A DNA stretch of 64,000 bases from positions 1 through 64,000 of the forward strand of contig JAGFNK010000226.1 in the NCBI GenBank assembly GCA_025769875.1. Reading direction: 5' to 3'. The position numbers and the translations under genes were made by a program. This document shows positions 28,390 through 60,640 of the stretch, piece after piece. The notes beneath the pieces are model-generated. The model was not told the DNA's origin, ran no database searches, and saw only the letters and a list, made by a program, of their open reading frames with translations. The stretch comes from Russula earlei. Taxonomy: Eukaryota > Basidiomycota > Agaricomycetes > Russulales > Russulaceae. Numbering within the stretch: the stretch's first letter is position 1; each line of letters opens with the position of its first letter.

Positions 28390-29080
28390 CTGTCGTTTTC
28401 ACGTGACCTTGCACTTGCCATTTTTGGATGTCATTTCGAGTGCAAAATCAAAACTGCTATATCTCAACAGTTTCTCAACAGATTGCCTTGAAACTTTGAC
28501 AGTACAACCTTACATACTGTATCTAGGTGCAGCTAAAATATGGGAGCCTAATATTCAGTTCCTGAAATGTTGATTTTAGGGTGCTGACATGGGTGCAAAA
28601 CTTTGAACTGCCATATCTCAACTGTTTCTCAATCAATTGACTTGAAACTTCGACAGTGGTATCTCATGTACTGTATCTAGGTGCAGCCCAAGAGTTGGGG
28701 TCCAATTCTTAGTTCTTGAAGTCTCGATTTTTGGGTGTGATCTGAGTGCGAAATTTCGAACTGCCATATCTCAACCATTTCTCCATAGATTGCCTTGAAA
28801 CTTGGACAGTGGGATCTCATGTACTGTGTCTAGGTGCATGCCAAGAGTTGGTGTCTAATTATTAGTTCTTGAAGTTTTGATTTTTGGGTGCAGATCTGTG
28901 TGCGAAATTTTGAACTGCAATATCTCAACCATTTATCCATGGATTTCCTTGAAACTTGGACAGTAGAACCTCATGTACTGTATCCAGATGCAGCCAAATC
29001 ATGGGTTTCACTGCCTGAATTTTTACGTTTTGGGATGCTGACCCCAAGCATGATAAGATTACATTATCCCTATAGCTAAC
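28390..29080 (+). repeat. Left terminal inverted repeat with four ~154-bp subrepeats
   Basis: The arm contains four tandem diverged units with period 153-154 bp. A landmark ATCTCAAC recurs at 28461, 28615, 28768 and 28922, each followed by GATTGCCTTGAAACTT or close variants. The inverse of the whole arm is at 32808-33483. Confidence 0.9.
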
Positions 29081-32807: not shown

Positions 32808-33483
32808 GCTGTAGGGACAATGTAATCATATCATGCTTGGGGTCAGCATCCCAAAACAAGCAGTGAAACCCATGATTTGGCTGCATCTGGATACAGTACA
32901 TGAGGTTCTACTGTCCAAGGTTCAAGGCAATCCATGGATAAATGGTTGAGATATTGCAGTTCAAAATTTCGCACACAGATCTGCACCCAAAAATCAAAAC
33001 TTCAAGAACTAATAATTAGACACCAACTCTTGGCATGCACCTAGACACAGTACATGAGATCCCACTGTCCAAGTTTCAAGGCAATCTATGGAGAAATGGT
33101 TGAGATATGGCAGTTCGAAATTTCGCACTCAGATCACACCCAAAAATCGAGACTTCAAGAACTAAGAATTGGACCCCAACTCTTGGGCTGCACCTAGATA
33201 CAGTACATGAGATACCACTGTCAAAGTTTCAAGTCAATTGATTGAGAAACAGTTGAGATATGGCAGTTCAAAGTTTTGCACCCATGTCAGCACCCAAAAA
33301 TCGACATTTCAGGAACTGAATATTAGGCTCCCATATTTAGCTGCACCTAGATACAGTATGTAAGGTTGTACTGTCAAAGTTTCAAGGCAATCTGTTGAGA
33401 AACTATTGAGATATAGCAGTTTTGATTTTGCACTCGAAATGACATCCAAAAATGGCAAGTGCAAGGTCACGTGAGAACGACAG
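32808..33483 (-). repeat. Right terminal inverted repeat of the TIR element
   Basis: This is the inverse of 28390-29080, with few differences over ~680 bp (for example AACAG/AATAG and TGTTGATTTTAGGG/TGTCGATTTTTGGG). It includes the same four ~154-bp units. The near-identity of the arms implies recent insertion or arm homogenisation. Confidence 0.9.
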
Positions 33484-33485
33484 TA

Positions 33486-34680
33486 AGCAGATTCCATAGA
33501 TTGAAATCCTGGACGAAGTACTTCGTCTTCTTCCTGTCTCCTTTGAAGACTTCAGGAGGGTCTCCTTTCAGAGATCCATTGCCTCCATGGGGACCTGGTG
33601 CTGGCTGAGGTGCCAGGTTCGCCCCTGGTCCTACAGGAGGTGCTGCGGGTGGTCCCCCTCCTGGAGGGCCTCCTCCAGGTGGGCCTCCTCCTGGTACTGG
33701 TGGACCTGCAGGTCCAAAGGGGACTCCTCCACCTCCAGGTGGTCCTCCTCCACCAGGTGGACCGCCTCCAGGGTTTATTACAATGGTGGGCCCTGTTCTT
33801 CCACCTGCTGTCTGGGTGGCAATGGTCACTGTCTGCATCGCTGCAATGGTAGCCATTTCAACCAATTCTTCTGGTTCTTCAACAATTGTTGGTTCAATGG
33901 GCGAGACGTGTACTGTCTGCTCTAGTCTTTCAGCTAGCTCCAATACTTCTGGTGCTTCTGCTTTCTGATCTGTAGTTGGAAGGTCCAACTTCTCTGTTTC
34001 TCCACTTGATGACTTTTGTATCAATGGAGCTGGGTCATCTACTACTGGGCTTCTGGGTTCCCAATGAGTAGTATAAGGATCTGTCTTGATTCCTAGACCT
34101 AGGACCTTATATTCGTCAATGTCTTCATCCTCTCCTGCGTAGGGACGTCCTTTGTGGTAATCAACAAAGTACCACTGATTGTTGATGTATTCGCAAGGAA
34201 GGTAGCTTCCTTTGTATTGGACCTCATATCTGTTAGGTCCTTCCTGGTCTGCCCAATTCCAGATGGCAGTCCCTTTTATTCCTGAGGGTAGATCGTCCCT
34301 CTCTCTAGCTTTGAACCAACCAAATTTGGTTCCTTGCTTCGATTTCTGGTTGAACTTTATGCGTATGCTGTGTTCACCTTCGATCTCCAGTTTGTCCGCT
34401 TGCCACTGCCTTTCCTAGGGAGTCAGGACTTGTGTGCCCGCTTACCACTGTCTATGCCAATGACAGTAGGGGTCTTTACAGAAGTATGCGTGTGTCCAAC
34501 CGTGCTGCTCGTCGAGAGTCACGTAGTACACCTTCTTCTTGTCATGGAGAGGTCTGTATAGAGTCTCTCCCTTGACTACTTCAGTGTAGGTTGCTGACGG
34601 TATGATGACTAGATCCTAGTCCTTAGGCTTCCTGCCTATTCTGGTTCACTTTCACTGCGATGTCTGTGATAGAAGCTTGA
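33486..34680 (-). CDS. Element A gag, N-terminal part
   Basis: The minus strand reads from just inside the 5' LTR: HDKKKVYYVTLDEQHGWTHA, GWFKARERDDLPSGIKGTAI, YLPCEYINNQWYFVDYHKGR, an acidic linker, then MIQKSSSGETEKLDLPTT, a Gly/Pro-rich stretch (PPGGGGPPGGGG) and GNGSLKGDPPEVFKGDRKK, where the nested element cuts in. A TAA at about 34440, also present in B, interrupts the first part. Confidence 0.82.
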
Positions 34681-34684
34681 CTTA

Positions 34685-35304
34685 TGTTAAGGCTCCAAAG
34701 TGCCTTAAATAAGATCAATGGTCATGTCTATGAACGCATCCTACCAATGCAGATATGCTTGAGTCAAGCAAGCAATACCCGTGGAGGGGAAGGAGTGTTA
34801 GATCCTTCTGGAGTATGGCAACAAGATGAGAGGGGCTCTGCAGATGGGGTAGGAGTCAACTGTTTGGGATTGGCAAACTAAGTCGAGCTTAGGGCTCAAC
34901 TGTTACAACTGGGGGCCTTATATAGCCCTACAGGGATAATGTTTGTGCTACTGTAGTACTGGTTGGTGCTATAGAAGCAAAACGCGGCTCATAGAAGCGA
35001 GGTTGCTTCTATGTAAACAATCTTGGTGCTGGAAGCATTAAGTGCTTCCCTAGTGGCAATCTTGGTGTCATAAGTACTTTCCTAATCAAGGAAGCAACGT
35101 ACGTGGCAGTACAAGAACATCTGGGACAGAAGCAATGCTACTCATTGCTTCTTCAATACATCTTCAGAAAGATATGATCAACGCGTTCGGATCGCAATAT
35201 CAACGAACATAAATGATCAAGATCTGACACACGCATGATGCAAACAGTGCAGCCCATAGTTCAGGTGTTCTGGCATCTTCCGGACCCCAAACCACTTGGT
35301 AACA
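34685..35304 (-). repeat. LTR-1 (620 bp), 5' LTR of element A
   Basis: It is the partner of 21512-22131, with the same TGTTAAGG ... GGTAACA ends. Differences are mainly CpG-type transitions, for example AACGCGGC here against AATGTGGC at 21808. CCAAG follows at 35305-35309. Confidence 0.95.
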
Positions 35305-35471
35305 CCAAGAACAAGCGTGCGGCGACGCAGAAGGCCCACCAGGGCTTTGCAGAAGGGTTGGCTGGTTTGTTGAAATCGGATGAGATAAAGGGGTTCAGGC
35401 ACTTTTTAAAGGGAATGTACCCCAAGTCATTGAGAGGGGGGGAGCTGTTGTGCAGCATAGAGCACAGCTAA
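35305..35471 (+). pseudogene. C2H2 zinc-finger gene, piece 3 (C-terminus)
   Basis: After the right target duplication the frame resumes where piece 2 stopped: NKRAATQKAHQGFAEGLAGL, LKSDEIKGFRHFLKGMYPKS, ending IEHS at TAA 35469-35471. A polar helical tail after two fingers is the arrangement I recall for the Agaricomycete family. The three pieces line up in a single frame when the LINE and element A are taken out, so the gene was intact at the time of insertion. Confidence 0.85.
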
Positions 35472-43429: not shown

Positions 43430-44780
43430 TTTTTGTGGTTCTTTGATATACGTGAGATTTTTGTGGTCTGTTCTTATTCTTACTGGTTCTTGAGCACCTA
43501 GGAAGAATGGTCGGCCACTTTTAATCCAAAGATAACAGCTGCTAGTTCTTTGTCATGTGCATTGTAGTTTCTTTCTGCATCCAGTAATGTTCTAGAGTAG
43601 AATGCTATAGGGTGGAGGCCATCTTGGTATTCTTGGGAGATGAATGCTCCTATGGTGAATCCAGACATGTCAGTGTCGAGGACAAATTGTTTTGTCCAGT
43701 TTGGTGTTCGTAGGACTGGATAAGATATGCATGTCCTTTTTAATGATTGAAATGCCTGTTCTTCCTTAGGTGTCCATTCCCATTGCCTATTTTTTTTTGT
43801 CAAGTCATTAAGAGGTCTGGCTTTTAGTGAAAAGTTGGGGATAAAGTTGCAATAAAAGTTACAGAATCCTAGGAAGCTTCAGACTTCTTTTAGTGTCATT
43901 GGTGTAGGCCAGTCTTGTTGGATATACAATCTGTCATATAGATTAATCCACTTCACTGTACCCAAGGCTAGGTAGCTCAGTGGTTAGAGCACCTGGTATA
44001 TATCTGGGAGGTCCTGGGTTCAATCCCCAGTCTGGCCATTTTCTTAATTGCACCAGGATATAGGGAATCATGTGAGCGCATGTCAACCCCCTCCTCTGAG
44101 GTCCCCAGGTTGGGTCACATAGTGTTGAACCCACAAGTCGGACCCAAAAGGGTGGCAATGACTAAGCACCTCCTCTGAGGTCCCTCTATCTGTGGTTGCA
44201 TTTCACAACAAGTCTTTGATCCCTTTAACTTTGACTGGGTCCATAGTTGTCTTTCCTTTGCCAATAATCACTCCTAGATATTCAACTGTTTTCTTGTGGA
44301 ATTGTCATTTTTCTGGTTTTAGATATGTATCATGCTGTTTTAGTTTCAATAGGATATGGTTGACTTTGGCTTTGTGTTCTTTCTCATCATTCTCTGTAGT
44401 GATGATGATATCATCCATATAGATTTTCAACCATCCTTGGGCATGTTCTTCTTGAAAAATGTCATCCATCATCATTTGAAAGGTTGCTGGGGAGTTGGAT
44501 AAACTGAAGAACATTACCATTGGTTCGAATAGTCCATCACTGGTCTTGAAAGCGGCTTTCCATTTGTCTCCTTTGATTCTGATGTTGTTATAGCCCTGTC
44601 TGACATCAAACTTGGTGAAGAGTTCTTTCCCAGCTAAAGCATGTATTAATTCGGGGATCAAGGGAAGGGGATAGACATTTGGTATTGTCCACTTGTTCAA
44701 ATTCCTGTAGTCTTGTACCGGTTGAAACTTGCCATCTTTCTTTTTGATCAGAAAGAAGCCACTTGCAGATGGGGAATTGG
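43430..44780 (-). CDS. Element E reverse transcriptase and RNase H (interrupted)
   Basis: Sense-strand frames include VYPLPLIPELIHALAGKELF, TKFDVRQGYNNIRIK and LKIYMDDIIITTENDEKEHK with the YMDD box (44420-44400). After the nested 295-bp insertion come SFNHYAMTLKE-like text and RNase H (FVLDTDMSGFTIGAFISQEY, RNYNAHDKELAAVIFGLK). Frameshifts are present. Confidence 0.83.
43916..44210 (+). mobile_element. 295-bp solo LTR containing a tRNA-like gene
   Basis: It begins TGTTGGATATAC and ends TTTCACAACA. AGTCT flanks it on both sides (43911-43915 and 44211-44215), and element F shows the uninterrupted site. TG..CA ends with TGTTG/CAACA symmetry plus a 5-bp duplication are LTR hallmarks. Inside are a complete tRNA-like cloverleaf (43966-44038), TTTT directly after it, and two copies of CCTCCTCTGAGGTCCC (about 44090 and 44169). 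It resembles terminal-repeat-in-miniature elements whose LTR carries a Pol III gene. Confidence 0.85.
43966..44038 (+). tRNA. tRNA-like sequence within a solo LTR
   Basis: It folds as a cloverleaf. The acceptor GGCTAGG pairs with TCTGGCC (two wobbles), then discriminator A. D stem GCTC/GAGC with AGTGGTTA loop. Anticodon stem CCTGG/CTGGG (two wobbles) with loop TATATAT. Variable AGGTC. T stem CTGGG/CCCAG with loop TTCAATC. Box A (TAGCTCAGTGG) and box B (GGTTCAATCCC) are intact, and TTTT follows at 44039-44042. Position 33 is A rather than the universal U, so a working tRNA is doubtful. It is probably a tRNA-derived Pol III promoter. Confidence 0.8.
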
Positions 44781-47521: not shown

Positions 47522-48183
47522 CTCCCACCCAGTAGAGGAGAACTTGACCTCAGAATCACCCTGAAACTAGATGCCCCCAAATTCCTTGATTGTTGAACCT
47601 ACTCTCTCCCCCAGAATGAAAAACAAGAACTGTCAAGACAGATACAGGAAGATCTGGCCAAAGGTTTCATCAAGGATGGCATCTCAGACTTTGTATCTCC
47701 TGTCTTCTTTGTCCAAAAGAAAGATGGCACCACCCCAAGAATGGTAGTAGACTACCGAAAGCTCAACAATGCCACCGTCCCAGATTATCATGCCCTACCA
47801 AACATGGAAGAACAATTACACCATCTAAGGGGCAAAACCACCTTTAGCAAATTTGATGTCAGAGCTGGCTACAATAACATCCTGATCCATCCAGAGGATC
47901 GACACAAGGGGGCCTTCAAAACTCAATTTGGCACATTCATCCCCATGATAATGGGCTTCGGCTTTACCAATGCACCGGCAGCCTTTCAACAGGCAATGAA
48001 CCACACTCTCAGACCTTGGCTCCTCAAGTATCCAGAAAACACCTGCAACTACCTAGATGACATGGCAATAGCCACAGGAGCTGGAGAAGAACATCTACAA
48101 GGACAAATCACACATGAATTCCTTGATCTTCTGGAAAGGGACTCTTATTTGCTGAAAGCATCCAAGTGCACCTTTGAACAAGG
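47522..48183 (+). CDS. Element D reverse transcriptase, N-terminal part
   Basis: The sequence reads FFVQKKDGTTPRMVVDYRKL, FSKFDVRAGYNNILIHPEDR, NAPAAFQQAMNHTL and NYLDDMAIATG with the YLDD box. It ends at KASKCTFEQG, where the LTR of element B begins. A TGA at about 47594 precedes this part. Confidence 0.85.
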
Positions 48184-48803
48184 TGTTACCGAGCAGTTTG
48201 GGGTCCGGAAGATGCTGGAACACCTGAACTATGGACTGCACCGTTTGCATCATGCGTGCGTCAGATCTTGATCGTTTATGTTCGTTAATATCGCGATCCG
48301 AACGCGTTGATCATATCTTTCTGAAGATGTATTGAAGAAGCAATGAGTAGCATTGCTTCTGTCCCAGATGTTCTTGTACCGCCATGTACGTTGCTTCCTT
48401 GATTAGGAAAGTACTTATGACACCAAGATTGCTACTAGGGAAGCACTCAATGCTTCCAGCACCAAGATTGTTTACATAGAAGCAACCTCGCTTCTATGAG
48501 CCACCTTTTGCTTCTATAGCACCAACCAGTACTACAGTAGCACAAACATTATCCCTGTAGGGCTATATAAGGCCCCCAGTTGTAACAGTTGAGCCCTAAG
48601 CTCGACTTAGTTTGCCAATCCCAAACAGTTGACTCCTACCCCATCTGCAGAGCCCCTCTCATCTTGTTGCCATACTCCAGAAGGATCTAACACTCCTTCC
48701 CCTCCACGAGTATTGCTTGCTTGACTCAAGCATATCTGCATTGGTAGGATGCGTTCATAGACATGACCATTGATCTTATTTAAGGCACTTTGGAGCCTTA
48801 ACA
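48184..48803 (+). repeat. LTR-1 (620 bp), 5' LTR of element B
   Basis: It begins TGTTACCGAG and ends GAGCCTTAACA, the inverse of the LTRs of element A. It is inserted in the RT of element D. Confidence 0.95.
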
Positions 48804-48849
48804 TAAGTCGAGCTTCTATCACAGACATCGCTGTGAAAGTGAACCAGAA

Positions 48850-50849
48850 TAGGCAGGAAGCCTAAGGACTAGGATCTAGTCATCATACCATCAGCAACCT
48901 ACACTGAAGTAGTCAAGGGAGAGAATCTATACAGACCTCTCCACGACAAGAAGAAGGTGTACTACGTGACTCTCGACGAGCAGCATGGTTGGACACACGC
49001 ATACTTCTGTAAAGACCCCTACTGTCATTGGCATAAACAGTGGTAAGCAGGCACACAAGTCCCGACTCCCTAGGAAAGGCAGTGGCAAGCAGACAAACTA
49101 GAGATCGAAGGTGAACACAGCATACGCGTAAAGTTCAACCAGAAATCGAAGCAAGGAACCAAATTTGGTTGGTTCAAAGCTAGAGAGAGGGACGATCTAC
49201 CCTCAGGAATAAAAGGGACTGCCATCTGGAATTGGGCAGACCAGGAAGGACCTAACAGATACGAGGTCTGATACAAAGGAAGCTACCTTCCTTGCAAATA
49301 CATCAATGATCAGTGGTACTTTGTAGATTACCACAAAGGACGTCCCTACATAGGAGAGGACGAAGACATTGACGAATATAAGCTCCTAGGTCTAGGAATC
49401 AAAACAGATCCTTATACTACTCATTGGGAACCCAGAAGCCCAGTAGTAGACGACCCAGCTCCATTGATACAAAAGTCATCAAGTGGAGAAACAGAGAAGT
49501 TGGACCTTCCAACTACAGATCAGAAAGCAGAAGCACCAGAAGTATTGGAATTAGCTGAAAGACTAGAGCAGACAGTACACATCTCGCCCATTGAACCAAC
49601 AATTGTTGAAGAACCAGAAGAATTGGTTGAAATGGCTACAATTGCAGCGATGCAGACAGCGACCATTGCCACCCAGACAGCAGGTGGAAGAACAGGGCCC
49701 ACCATTGTAATAAACCCTGGAGGCGGTCCACCTGGTGGAGGAGGACCACCTGGAGGTGGAGGAGTCCCCTTTGGACCCGCAGGTCCACCAGTACCAAGAG
49801 GAGGCCCACCTGGAGGAGGCCCTCCAGGAGGGGGACCACCCGCAGCACCTCCTGTAGGACCAGGGGCGAACCTGGCACCTCAGCCAGCACCAGGTCCCCA
49901 TGGAGGCAATGGATCTCTGAAAGGAGACCCTCCTGAAGTCTTCAAAGGAGACAGGAAGAAGATGAAGTACTTTGTCCAGGATTTCAATCTATGGAATCTG
50001 CTTAACAGTGACAACCCAACTATGACTATTCCAATGAAGTGAGTAGCCCTAGCTCTCACCTACATCAAAGGAGAGAAGGTGCATGAATGGGTGGTCAACC
50101 AAACAAACCTGGTAGAAGCAAAAAGAAATGGAGACCCGCCGTCTCCCTATGCACCAGTGCAGCTACATCCAACTGACATGTTCTTTTGGACCGAATTTGT
50201 GGATGACTTCTTCAGAGAATTCAAAGACACCACAGAGCCTGAAGACGCTTTCATGGAGCTACAACAATTGTCCATGTCTAAAGCAGCATCGCTGGATGAC
50301 TATACCAGCAAATTCCTTGTTCTGCTCAGTAAAGCAGGATGGGACCAGAATTCACCAGGAGCAGTCGAAGCCTATAAGGCTGGACTAATCACCTGGCTGG
50401 TGCGACAAATCTACAGTCGACCAGTCAGAGACATACCTGCCATCAATGATCTGTGAGCATGGATCAATGCTGCTAGGGAAGAACAGGCCAGAGACCAGCT
50501 CATGAAAGCCAATATTAAATCTGGAGGTGGATCGTTGACCACCAGGGAAAATCACATGAAATCCCTACAGGCTGGGAAAAGGCAAAACCAAAGAGACCCA
50601 AATGCTATGGAAGTGGACTCAGTATCCACTGATGCAGCAAGGACCAAGCGACGTCCTCCTCTGACAGAGGAAAAGAAGAAACTGCTAGCAGAAGGGAAAT
50701 GCTTCATCAGCAAGAAAGCAGGACATATCAGCCAGAACTGTCCTGTCAAGGACAGAGTCAAGAAGAAATCAAGTAACTCAAGGGACAAAGGGAAAAGCTT
50801 GAGCTCTGGAAACAGAAAAGGAGGACAATTCAGGGGACAGTGGAAATGA
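48850..50849 (+). CDS. Element B gag
   Basis: It reads HDKKKVYYVTLDEQHGWTHA near the start, then SSSGETEKLDLPTTDQKAE, a Gly/Pro-rich stretch, GDPPEVFKGDRKKMKYFVQD, FFWTEFVDDFFREFKD, and the knuckle region CFISKKAGHISQNC, whose second Cys is Ser. Stops at 49046, about 50041 and 50455 interrupt it; the first and third are also present at the same sites in A. Confidence 0.85.
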
Positions 50850-59270: not shown

Positions 59271-59901
59271 AGATTTTGGGTGGGAGTAGTGTTGTTTTTT
59301 GTTCTTCTACCCCCTTGTTAAGGTCTTTGTGACGAGAAAGTGTGTCGGTGATAGTGTGCATGTGTCCAGGGACGTGTTCCATAGTGATGTTAAAATCCTG
59401 CATGTATTGCATCCATCTGGCTTGTCGTCCCATTAATTTCTGTGGTTCTTTAAAATAGGTGAGGTTTTTATGGTCTGTTCTTATTCTAACTGGTTTGTCA
59501 GCCCCTAGAAGGAACAGTTGTCCACCTTTTAGTCCAAAAATTACTGCTGCTAATTCTTTATCATGCGCATCATAATTTCTTTCCACATCCAGTAATGTTC
59601 TGGAGTAGTATGCTATTGGATGTAGACCGTCTTCATATTCTTGGGATATGACTGCTCCAATGGCAAATCCTGATGCATCAGTGTCTAGAATGAATTGTCT
59701 CATCCAATCTGGGGTTCGAAGCACAGGGTAGGATACACAGGTTTCTTTTAGGATTTGAAAGGCCTGTTCTTCTTTTGTTGTCCACTCCCTTTGCTTGTTT
59801 TTCTTTGTCAAGTCATTTAATGGCCTGGCTTTTATAGAGAAGTTGGGTATAAAGTTTCGGTAGAAATTGCAAAATCCTAAGAAACTTCTAACTTCTTTCA
59901 A
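59263..59901 (-). CDS. Element F RNase H
   Basis: One clean 212-codon frame: MKEVRSFLGFCNFYRNFIPN, FILDTDASGFAIGAVISQEY, RNYDAHDKELAAVIFGLKGG, and DTLSRHKDLNKGVEEQ. It is the best preserved part of the element. Confidence 0.9.
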   Translation of the reverse strand: MKEVRSFLGFCNFYRNFIPNFSIKARPLNDLTKKNKQREWTTKEEQAFQILKETCVSYPVLRTPDWMRQFILDTDASGFAIGAVISQEYEDGLHPIAYYSRTLLDVERNYDAHDKELAAVIFGLKGGQLFLLGADKPVRIRTDHKNLTYFKEPQKLMGRQARWMQYMQDFNITMEHVPGHMHTITDTLSRHKDLNKGVEEQKTTLLPPKIFA

Positions 59902-59906
59902 TGTTG

Positions 59907-60640
59907 TCAGGGTTGGCCAGTCTTTAAAGTCAAAATTTCTTTGACTTTGATGGGGTCCATAGTTATTTTTCCTTCCCCTATAATTACTCCAAGGTATTCA
60001 ACCTTTCTTTTGTGGAATTGGCATTTTTCTGGTTTAAGGTAGAGGTTGTGTTGCTTTAATTTGGATAGTATGTGGTTGACTTTTAGCATGTGTTCTGCTT
60101 CATCATTTTGGTGGCAATGATAATGTCATCCATGTAGATTTTCAACCATCCTTGTGCAAGTTCCTCTTGGAAAATGTTGTGCATCATGGTTTGAAAGGTG
60201 GCTGGAGAGTTTGTTAGTCCAAAGAACATTACCATTGGTTCAAATAATCTGTCACTAGTTTTGAAGGCCGCTTTCCATTCGTCTCCTTCTTTGATCTGGA
60301 TGTTATTGTAGCCCCATCTGACATCAAATTTGGTGAAAAGCTCCTTTCCTGCCAAGGCATGGATAAGCTCTGGGATTAGAGGTAGTGGGTATACGTTAGG
60401 TATTGTCCACTTGTTTAGATTTCTATAGTCCTGTACTGGTTGGAATTTACTGTCCTTCTTTTTCATAAGGAAGAATCCACTGGCATATGGTGAATTGGAC
60501 CTTCTTATTCATTTGAGTCATAAATTCTGTTCGAGGAATTTTCCCTGTTCTTCTTTTTCTTTTGGTGAAAGGGGATATACTCTGCAGTTGATTGTCATTG
60601 GGGCATCTGATTTCAGGTCGATGGCATGGTCCCATTTTCT
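59907..60640 (-). CDS. Element F reverse transcriptase
   Basis: PLPLIPELIHALAGKELFTK, FDVRWGYNNIQIKEGDEWKA, VMFFGLTNSPATFQTMM and LKIYMDDIIIATK with YMDD. Frameshifts near 60450 and 60085 break the frame into three. Confidence 0.88.

Follow-up and report, generated by a model that had tools for sequence, protein, structure and literature searches.

What kind of mobile element interrupts a Gypsy element of Russula earlei with an LTR that carries a tRNA-like unit, and how would such an element make a full-length genome? The locus lies in a 64,000-nt stretch of DNA, analysed as a whole and referred to here as the window. The original prediction placed a 295-bp solo LTR with TGTTG...CAACA ends at 43916-44210 (+), between perfect 5-bp copies of AGTCT (43911-43915 and 44211-44215), and all of these details hold. 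A related element in the window had been proposed to preserve the empty site. This, too, is borne out, as joining the flanks with one AGTCT gives 92 identities over 120 positions aligned with a paralogous Gypsy sequence. The insert is a solo LTR, derived from a TRIM-like element, and contains a tRNA-derived unit. Its site and main landmarks are as follows.

43911-43915, no strand assigned: target-site duplication AGTCT, 5' copy
43916-44210, + strand: solo LTR, TGTTG...CAACA, 295 bp
44085-44105, + strand: 21-bp direct repeat, first copy, with CCTCCTCTGAGGTCCC
44164-44184, + strand: 21-bp direct repeat, second copy, 90% identical
44211-44215, no strand assigned: target-site duplication AGTCT, 3' copy
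59861-59995, no strand assigned: empty site, paralogous Gypsy stretch lacking the insert

No definable pair of Gypsy LTRs was found within the window. The window holds several long inverted repeats, including one of 1,837 nt and 97% complementarity (33484-35320 and 48168-50004), and a tandem array of ~153-bp units that occurs in both orientations (28452-29017 and 32830-33421). It also encodes a DUF6535 protein with 100% identity to an R. earlei protein.

The LTR is repeated throughout the R. earlei assembly (66.6 Mb, 1,374 contigs). Its 26-base 5' end occurs 103 times with three or fewer mismatches (56 and 47 on the two strands), whereas the reversed control pattern of the same 26 bases occurs nowhere in the genome, so the LTR is not a chance sequence. 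A DNA search of the host genome with the LTR, in which 40 of 120 candidates were scored, gave at least 41 matches with identities of 97-100%. The copy set was drawn from 100 of the 103 places, some of which gave short pieces only; among 98 unique matched pieces, 87 complete LTRs were counted and 11 partial ones left out. Further copies had been expected, with uniform rather than variable 3' ends, and this is what was found: 86 of the 87 complete copies start with TGTTG and 86 end with CAACA. A perfect 5-bp duplication flanks 75 complete copies, and five more have one mismatch. Nearly all copies are solo, and the pieces read, other than the full element on contig C438 described below, are solo or broken. 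One copy (L066) is split at LTR positions 173-177 by an insert of ~830 bp that starts with TGTCAAGACA and ends with TTCGTAACA; the halves overlap by 5 bp, and the insert is apparently another solo LTR.

Within the LTR, ARAGORN identifies a tRNA-like unit at 43966-44038 (Ile, anticodon UAU), and Infernal matches the same positions to the Rfam tRNA family RF00005 at 53 bits (E value of 1.5e-8), well above the gathering score of 29; no other Rfam family reaches its gathering score in the window. The prediction of a complete unit with A and B boxes and TTTT directly behind it is upheld.

43966-44038, + strand: tRNA-like unit, anticodon UAU, A at position 33 (ARAGORN, Infernal)
43973-43984, + strand: A box region TAGCTCAGTGGT, identical in 78 of 87 complete copies
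43997-44003, + strand: anticodon loop TATATAT, present in 86 of 87 complete copies
44017-44027, + strand: B box GGTTCAATCCC, identical in 67 of 87 complete copies
44039-44042, + strand: run of four T (T4), a presumed weak Pol III terminator, of this length in 84 of 87 copies

The full cloverleaf that had been drawn for this segment stands in part. The covariance alignment of the window copy spans the complete model (positions 1-71) with no non-standard pair flagged, but minimum-energy folding of this copy gives a different structure, with an unremarkable energy (z score of -1.30, with 21 of 200 shuffled sequences folding as well). Across the 87 complete copies, cloverleaf pairing is broken in 17 of 1,827 pair cells. 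Position 33 is U in tRNAs. The tRNA part is 76% identical to the host tRNA-Ile(AAT) gene, the best of 12 + 11 tRNA genes compared, and this gene is a lead only for the possible source of the unit. By place or sequence, LTR copies account for 40 of the 63 tRNA matches scored in the assembly, from 2,100 candidates.

Three CpG sites occur in the LTR, one of them in the anticodon stem.

44005-44006, + strand: anticodon-stem CpG site, TG in the window copy
44077-44078, + strand: CpG hot spot, CG in 40, TG in 26 and CA in 21 of 87 copies
44139-44140, + strand: CpG hot spot, CG in 44, TG in 24, CA in 18 and AG in 1 of 87 copies

Transitions at these sites amount to 0.28 per site and copy, versus 0.008 at other C or G positions, a difference of ~35-fold. 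Methylation of CpG cytosine leads to such transitions, and the fast change at these sites is what methylation would give. The state of the anticodon-stem site is linked to folding. Of the CG-type and CA-type copies, 23 of 28 and 24 of 26, respectively, have 17 or more of the 21 cloverleaf pairs in the minimum-energy fold; this holds for none of the 32 TG-type copies (the window copy included) and not for the single AA-type copy. TG at this site therefore goes with loss of the cloverleaf as the minimum fold. An interpretation of the TG, CG and CA types as subfamilies, or as steps in a gradual loss of pairing, was rejected; they are three states of one nearly independent CpG. Recurrent deamination is the better reading of these types, as the anticodon-stem site has no significant association with either of the two other CpG sites (P values of 0.10 and 0.28). 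Those two sites together gave a P value of 0.049, with an excess of copies retaining CG at both, as differences in copy age would give.

The original prediction took the A at position 33 as a sign of selection for promoter or fold rather than for decoding. Selection of this kind is not seen among the inserted copies. In the 87 complete copies, 45 of 182 non-shared changes lie in the tRNA part, which covers 73 of the 295 sites, as expected without constraint; with CpG sites excluded, there were 61 changes over 71 tRNA-part sites versus 154 over 218 sites elsewhere. In a smaller set of 51 copies, the tRNA part had 11 of 62 non-shared changes, below the 15 expected, and this lean was gone with 87. 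Because the changes are spread as they would be without constraint, nothing suggests that inserted copies are maintained as tRNAs, and any selection could act on source elements only.

Paired copies separated by a primer-binding site and a purine tract had been expected of an LTR element, and one such element was found. At C438:29365-30003, a full element of 639 bp consists of two LTRs of 296 bp on either side of a 47-bp middle, with an outer duplication of CCCCA. It is the one intact pair among the 100 5'-end places read, with 8 differences between its LTRs over 296 positions. The middle opens with TGGTAGCAGCACC directly behind the first LTR. Typical primer sites complement a tRNA 3' end, with TGG pairing to CCA, and TGGTAGCAGCACC is of this form. 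A second copy of the 47-bp middle, with one change, lies beside an inverted LTR piece on contig C314. In both middles, GATTGGGGGGGTG, a G-rich tract interrupted by T, stands directly before TGTTG. By position, TGGTAGCAGCACC and GATTGGGGGGGTG would thus occupy the places of the primer site and the polypurine tract.

Among the matched pieces, the putative primer site follows the LTR at C438 only. The exact 13-base primer site has four matches genome-wide, two in these TRIMs and two in bacterial-looking DNA, and the search for the polypurine region returned the two TRIMs and one match with three mismatches, equal to one control match. Apart from the bacterial-looking places and this 3-mismatch match, no other carrier of the 47-bp middle was found genome-wide by either of its ends. 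Neither the window nor 231,699 bases taken from the assembly contain an N, which suggests a long-read assembly in which such LTR pairs would not be collapsed. From two cases only, we infer that LTRs 47 bp apart recombine very readily and that the two surviving middles are hindered cases, the C438 pair because of its eight LTR differences and the C314 middle because of the inversion. As a separate observation, the R. earlei assembly includes bacterial-looking DNA on contigs C197 and C649 (L075 and L076) and at tRNA loci L069, L071 and L142, with repetitive surface-protein-like sequence and tRNA genes of bacterial type.

Neither the primer tRNA nor an autonomous partner was found by the searches made. 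No host tRNA gene matching TGGTAGCAGCACC was found by pattern search of the assembly, five iMet-type patterns found no host iMet gene (the one match to one of them being a Copia primer site), and a whole-genome search found no autonomous carrier of the exact 13-base primer site. Copia elements are abundant, with 150 reverse transcriptase matches scored of 1,130 candidates, many of them in long open frames. Four were sampled. In L077, L081 and L083, clear TGTTGA...CAACA LTRs are accompanied by 5-bp duplications, and GGTTATGGGCCCTG is the primer site; no clean LTR border was seen in the fourth. We take GGTTATGGGCCCTG to be the complement of an initiator-tRNA-type anticodon arm. It was taken for the half-tRNA (anticodon) type of primer site described in PMC10886601. 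The TRIM primer site is not shared with the sampled Copia elements and differs from that of these three, so the partner is not among them. At another place, on contig C22, an LTR piece (L147, C22:264287-264359) adjoins sequence that is also found beside a Copia primer site (L085); as an LTR start lies 3.5 kb away (C22:267829-267854), an LTR copy there may have received a Copia insertion.

The T4 run behind the tRNA-like unit is short by the standard of the host. Behind all 19 fungal nuclear-like tRNA genes sampled, the first T-run (counting runs from four T upwards) has a length of 5 to 10, and the LTR TTTT is shorter than each of them. These 19 genes are high-scoring matches rather than a random sample and include three duplicated-looking pairs, leaving ~16 independent genes. 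They were kept from 24 places viewed, with five set aside by judgement: three bacterial-looking (L069, L071 and L142), one AT-rich and organelle-looking (L139) and one LTR copy (L147). A further LTR copy, L148, lies outside the 24 places. Among the tRNA genes set aside, T4 is the first run behind L069, L139 and L142, while L071 lacks it. For budding yeast in vitro, PMC9278858 reports five T as the minimal functional terminator and T4 as weak and rarely primary, although T4 can still terminate with the aid of adjacent RNA structure or Sen1. T4 against a host norm of five or more suggests Pol III read-through. A full-length genomic RNA needs passage through the first LTR, and the predicted Pol III transcript could read through it because T4 is weak.

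Russula shares its order with Amylostereum, and the element described here is a member of Helenus, a kind already known in fungi. The name Helenus was introduced in 2024 for TRIMs whose LTRs contain a tRNA-like sequence; 113 families were reported from rust fungi, along with examples from Agaricus, Coprinopsis and Amylostereum (Kojima 2024, PMC10886601); the arrangement is therefore less novel than the "little-described" of the original prediction. According to the same paper, Pol III transcription of Helenus has not been validated in general, and fungal Helenus elements share a primer site with autonomous Copia elements, although this is not defining. As described there, Helenus resembles the Russula element in its two short LTRs, the tRNA-derived unit with A and B boxes, the lack of coding sequence, the positions of primer site and polypurine tract, the frequency of solo LTRs and, in fungi, the 5-bp duplications (perfect here in 75 of 87 copies); the 639 bp of the Russula element also lie inside the reported range of 311-1263 bp. 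Unlike the families described, the Russula element has a middle of only 47 bp and ~100 LTRs to 2 middles, compared with 529 LTRs to 144 middles for LTR-1_PTrit, and its primer site has the tRNA 3' end complement form, which is reported for only several fungal Helenus families. Russula is absent from Table 1 of PMC10886601, and no published report for Russula was found in the literature searched; a family tabulated in the supplement of that paper or in Repbase is possible. A weak T4 relative to the host norm and CpG-driven loss of the fold are both absent from the results and discussion of PMC10886601.

Two related systems use 5S rRNA instead. Cassandra, a plant TRIM with 5S rRNA in the LTR, similarly places the Pol III promoter and terminator of a small-RNA gene in a TRIM LTR, and read-through of LTRs in its tandem arrays was presumed by the authors (PMC7215508). 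The Russula element differs from Cassandra in having a tRNA rather than 5S, a fungal host and solo LTRs rather than tandem arrays. Ajax, a nemertean TRIM with a partial 5S, likewise has a small-RNA promoter in the LTR and 5-bp duplications but is 5S derived and found in an animal (PMC10886601).

The locus is most probably the remnant of a tRNA-bearing TRIM that was transcribed by Pol III, moved by an autonomous element and then reduced to a solo LTR with CpG decay. Pol III would bind the A and B boxes of the 5' LTR and start just upstream of the tRNA, sometimes passing the weak T4, copying the 47-bp middle and stopping at the T4 in the 3' LTR. The tRNA-like segment would form the repeated R region of the genomic RNA, with reverse transcriptase and integrase supplied by an autonomous element. 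After insertion, LTRs only 47 bp apart would recombine to leave a solo LTR, and CpG methylation would then decay the inserted copy. A more elaborate version, in which T4 is a tuned switch, is possible but doubtful: most passages of Pol III would stop there and yield a tRNA-like RNA, a minority would continue and give genomic RNA, the cloverleaf would serve as the R region for strand transfer, and methylation of the anticodon-stem CpG would both mark the element and mutate its fold away.

The alternative that survives best, although unlikely, is that Pol II transcribes the LTR, as in ordinary LTR retrotransposons, and that the tRNA part, left by an old tRNA or SINE insertion, is a passenger, in which case the TATATAT of the anticodon loop might act as a TATA box. 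The presence of this loop in 86 of 87 copies fits this reading, as do the A at position 33, where tRNAs have U, and the absence of constraint on the tRNA part of inserted copies. On the other hand, most copies have an intact A box region, B box, T-run and stems, with the 17 of 1,827 pair cells as the only broken ones, and a mere passenger need not have kept boxes, stems and T-run in the source element. That the unit is a functioning host tRNA-Ile(UAU) gene, located inside a repeat by chance, is very improbable, and this reading was rejected: ARAGORN and Rfam do call a tRNA, but the A at position 33, the lack of a cloverleaf at minimum energy in the window copy and the absence of constraint (the tRNA part, 73 of 295 sites, has 45 of the 182 non-shared changes) all stand against it. 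The least probable reading, a tRNA-derived SINE moved by a LINE, accounts for the short length, the A and B boxes and the 76% identity to tRNA-Ile(AAT) but is refuted by the fixed TGTTG/CAACA ends of an LTR and the paired copy with a middle, along with the fixed 5-bp duplications and the lack of a tail.

The element extends the known tRNA-bearing TRIMs to Russula. Its LTR copies inflate automatic counts of tRNA genes in the host genome. The comparison with host tRNA genes makes the idea of read-through testable, and the element offers a compact system for studying how full-length genomes can arise from a Pol III element whose own LTR contains a terminator.
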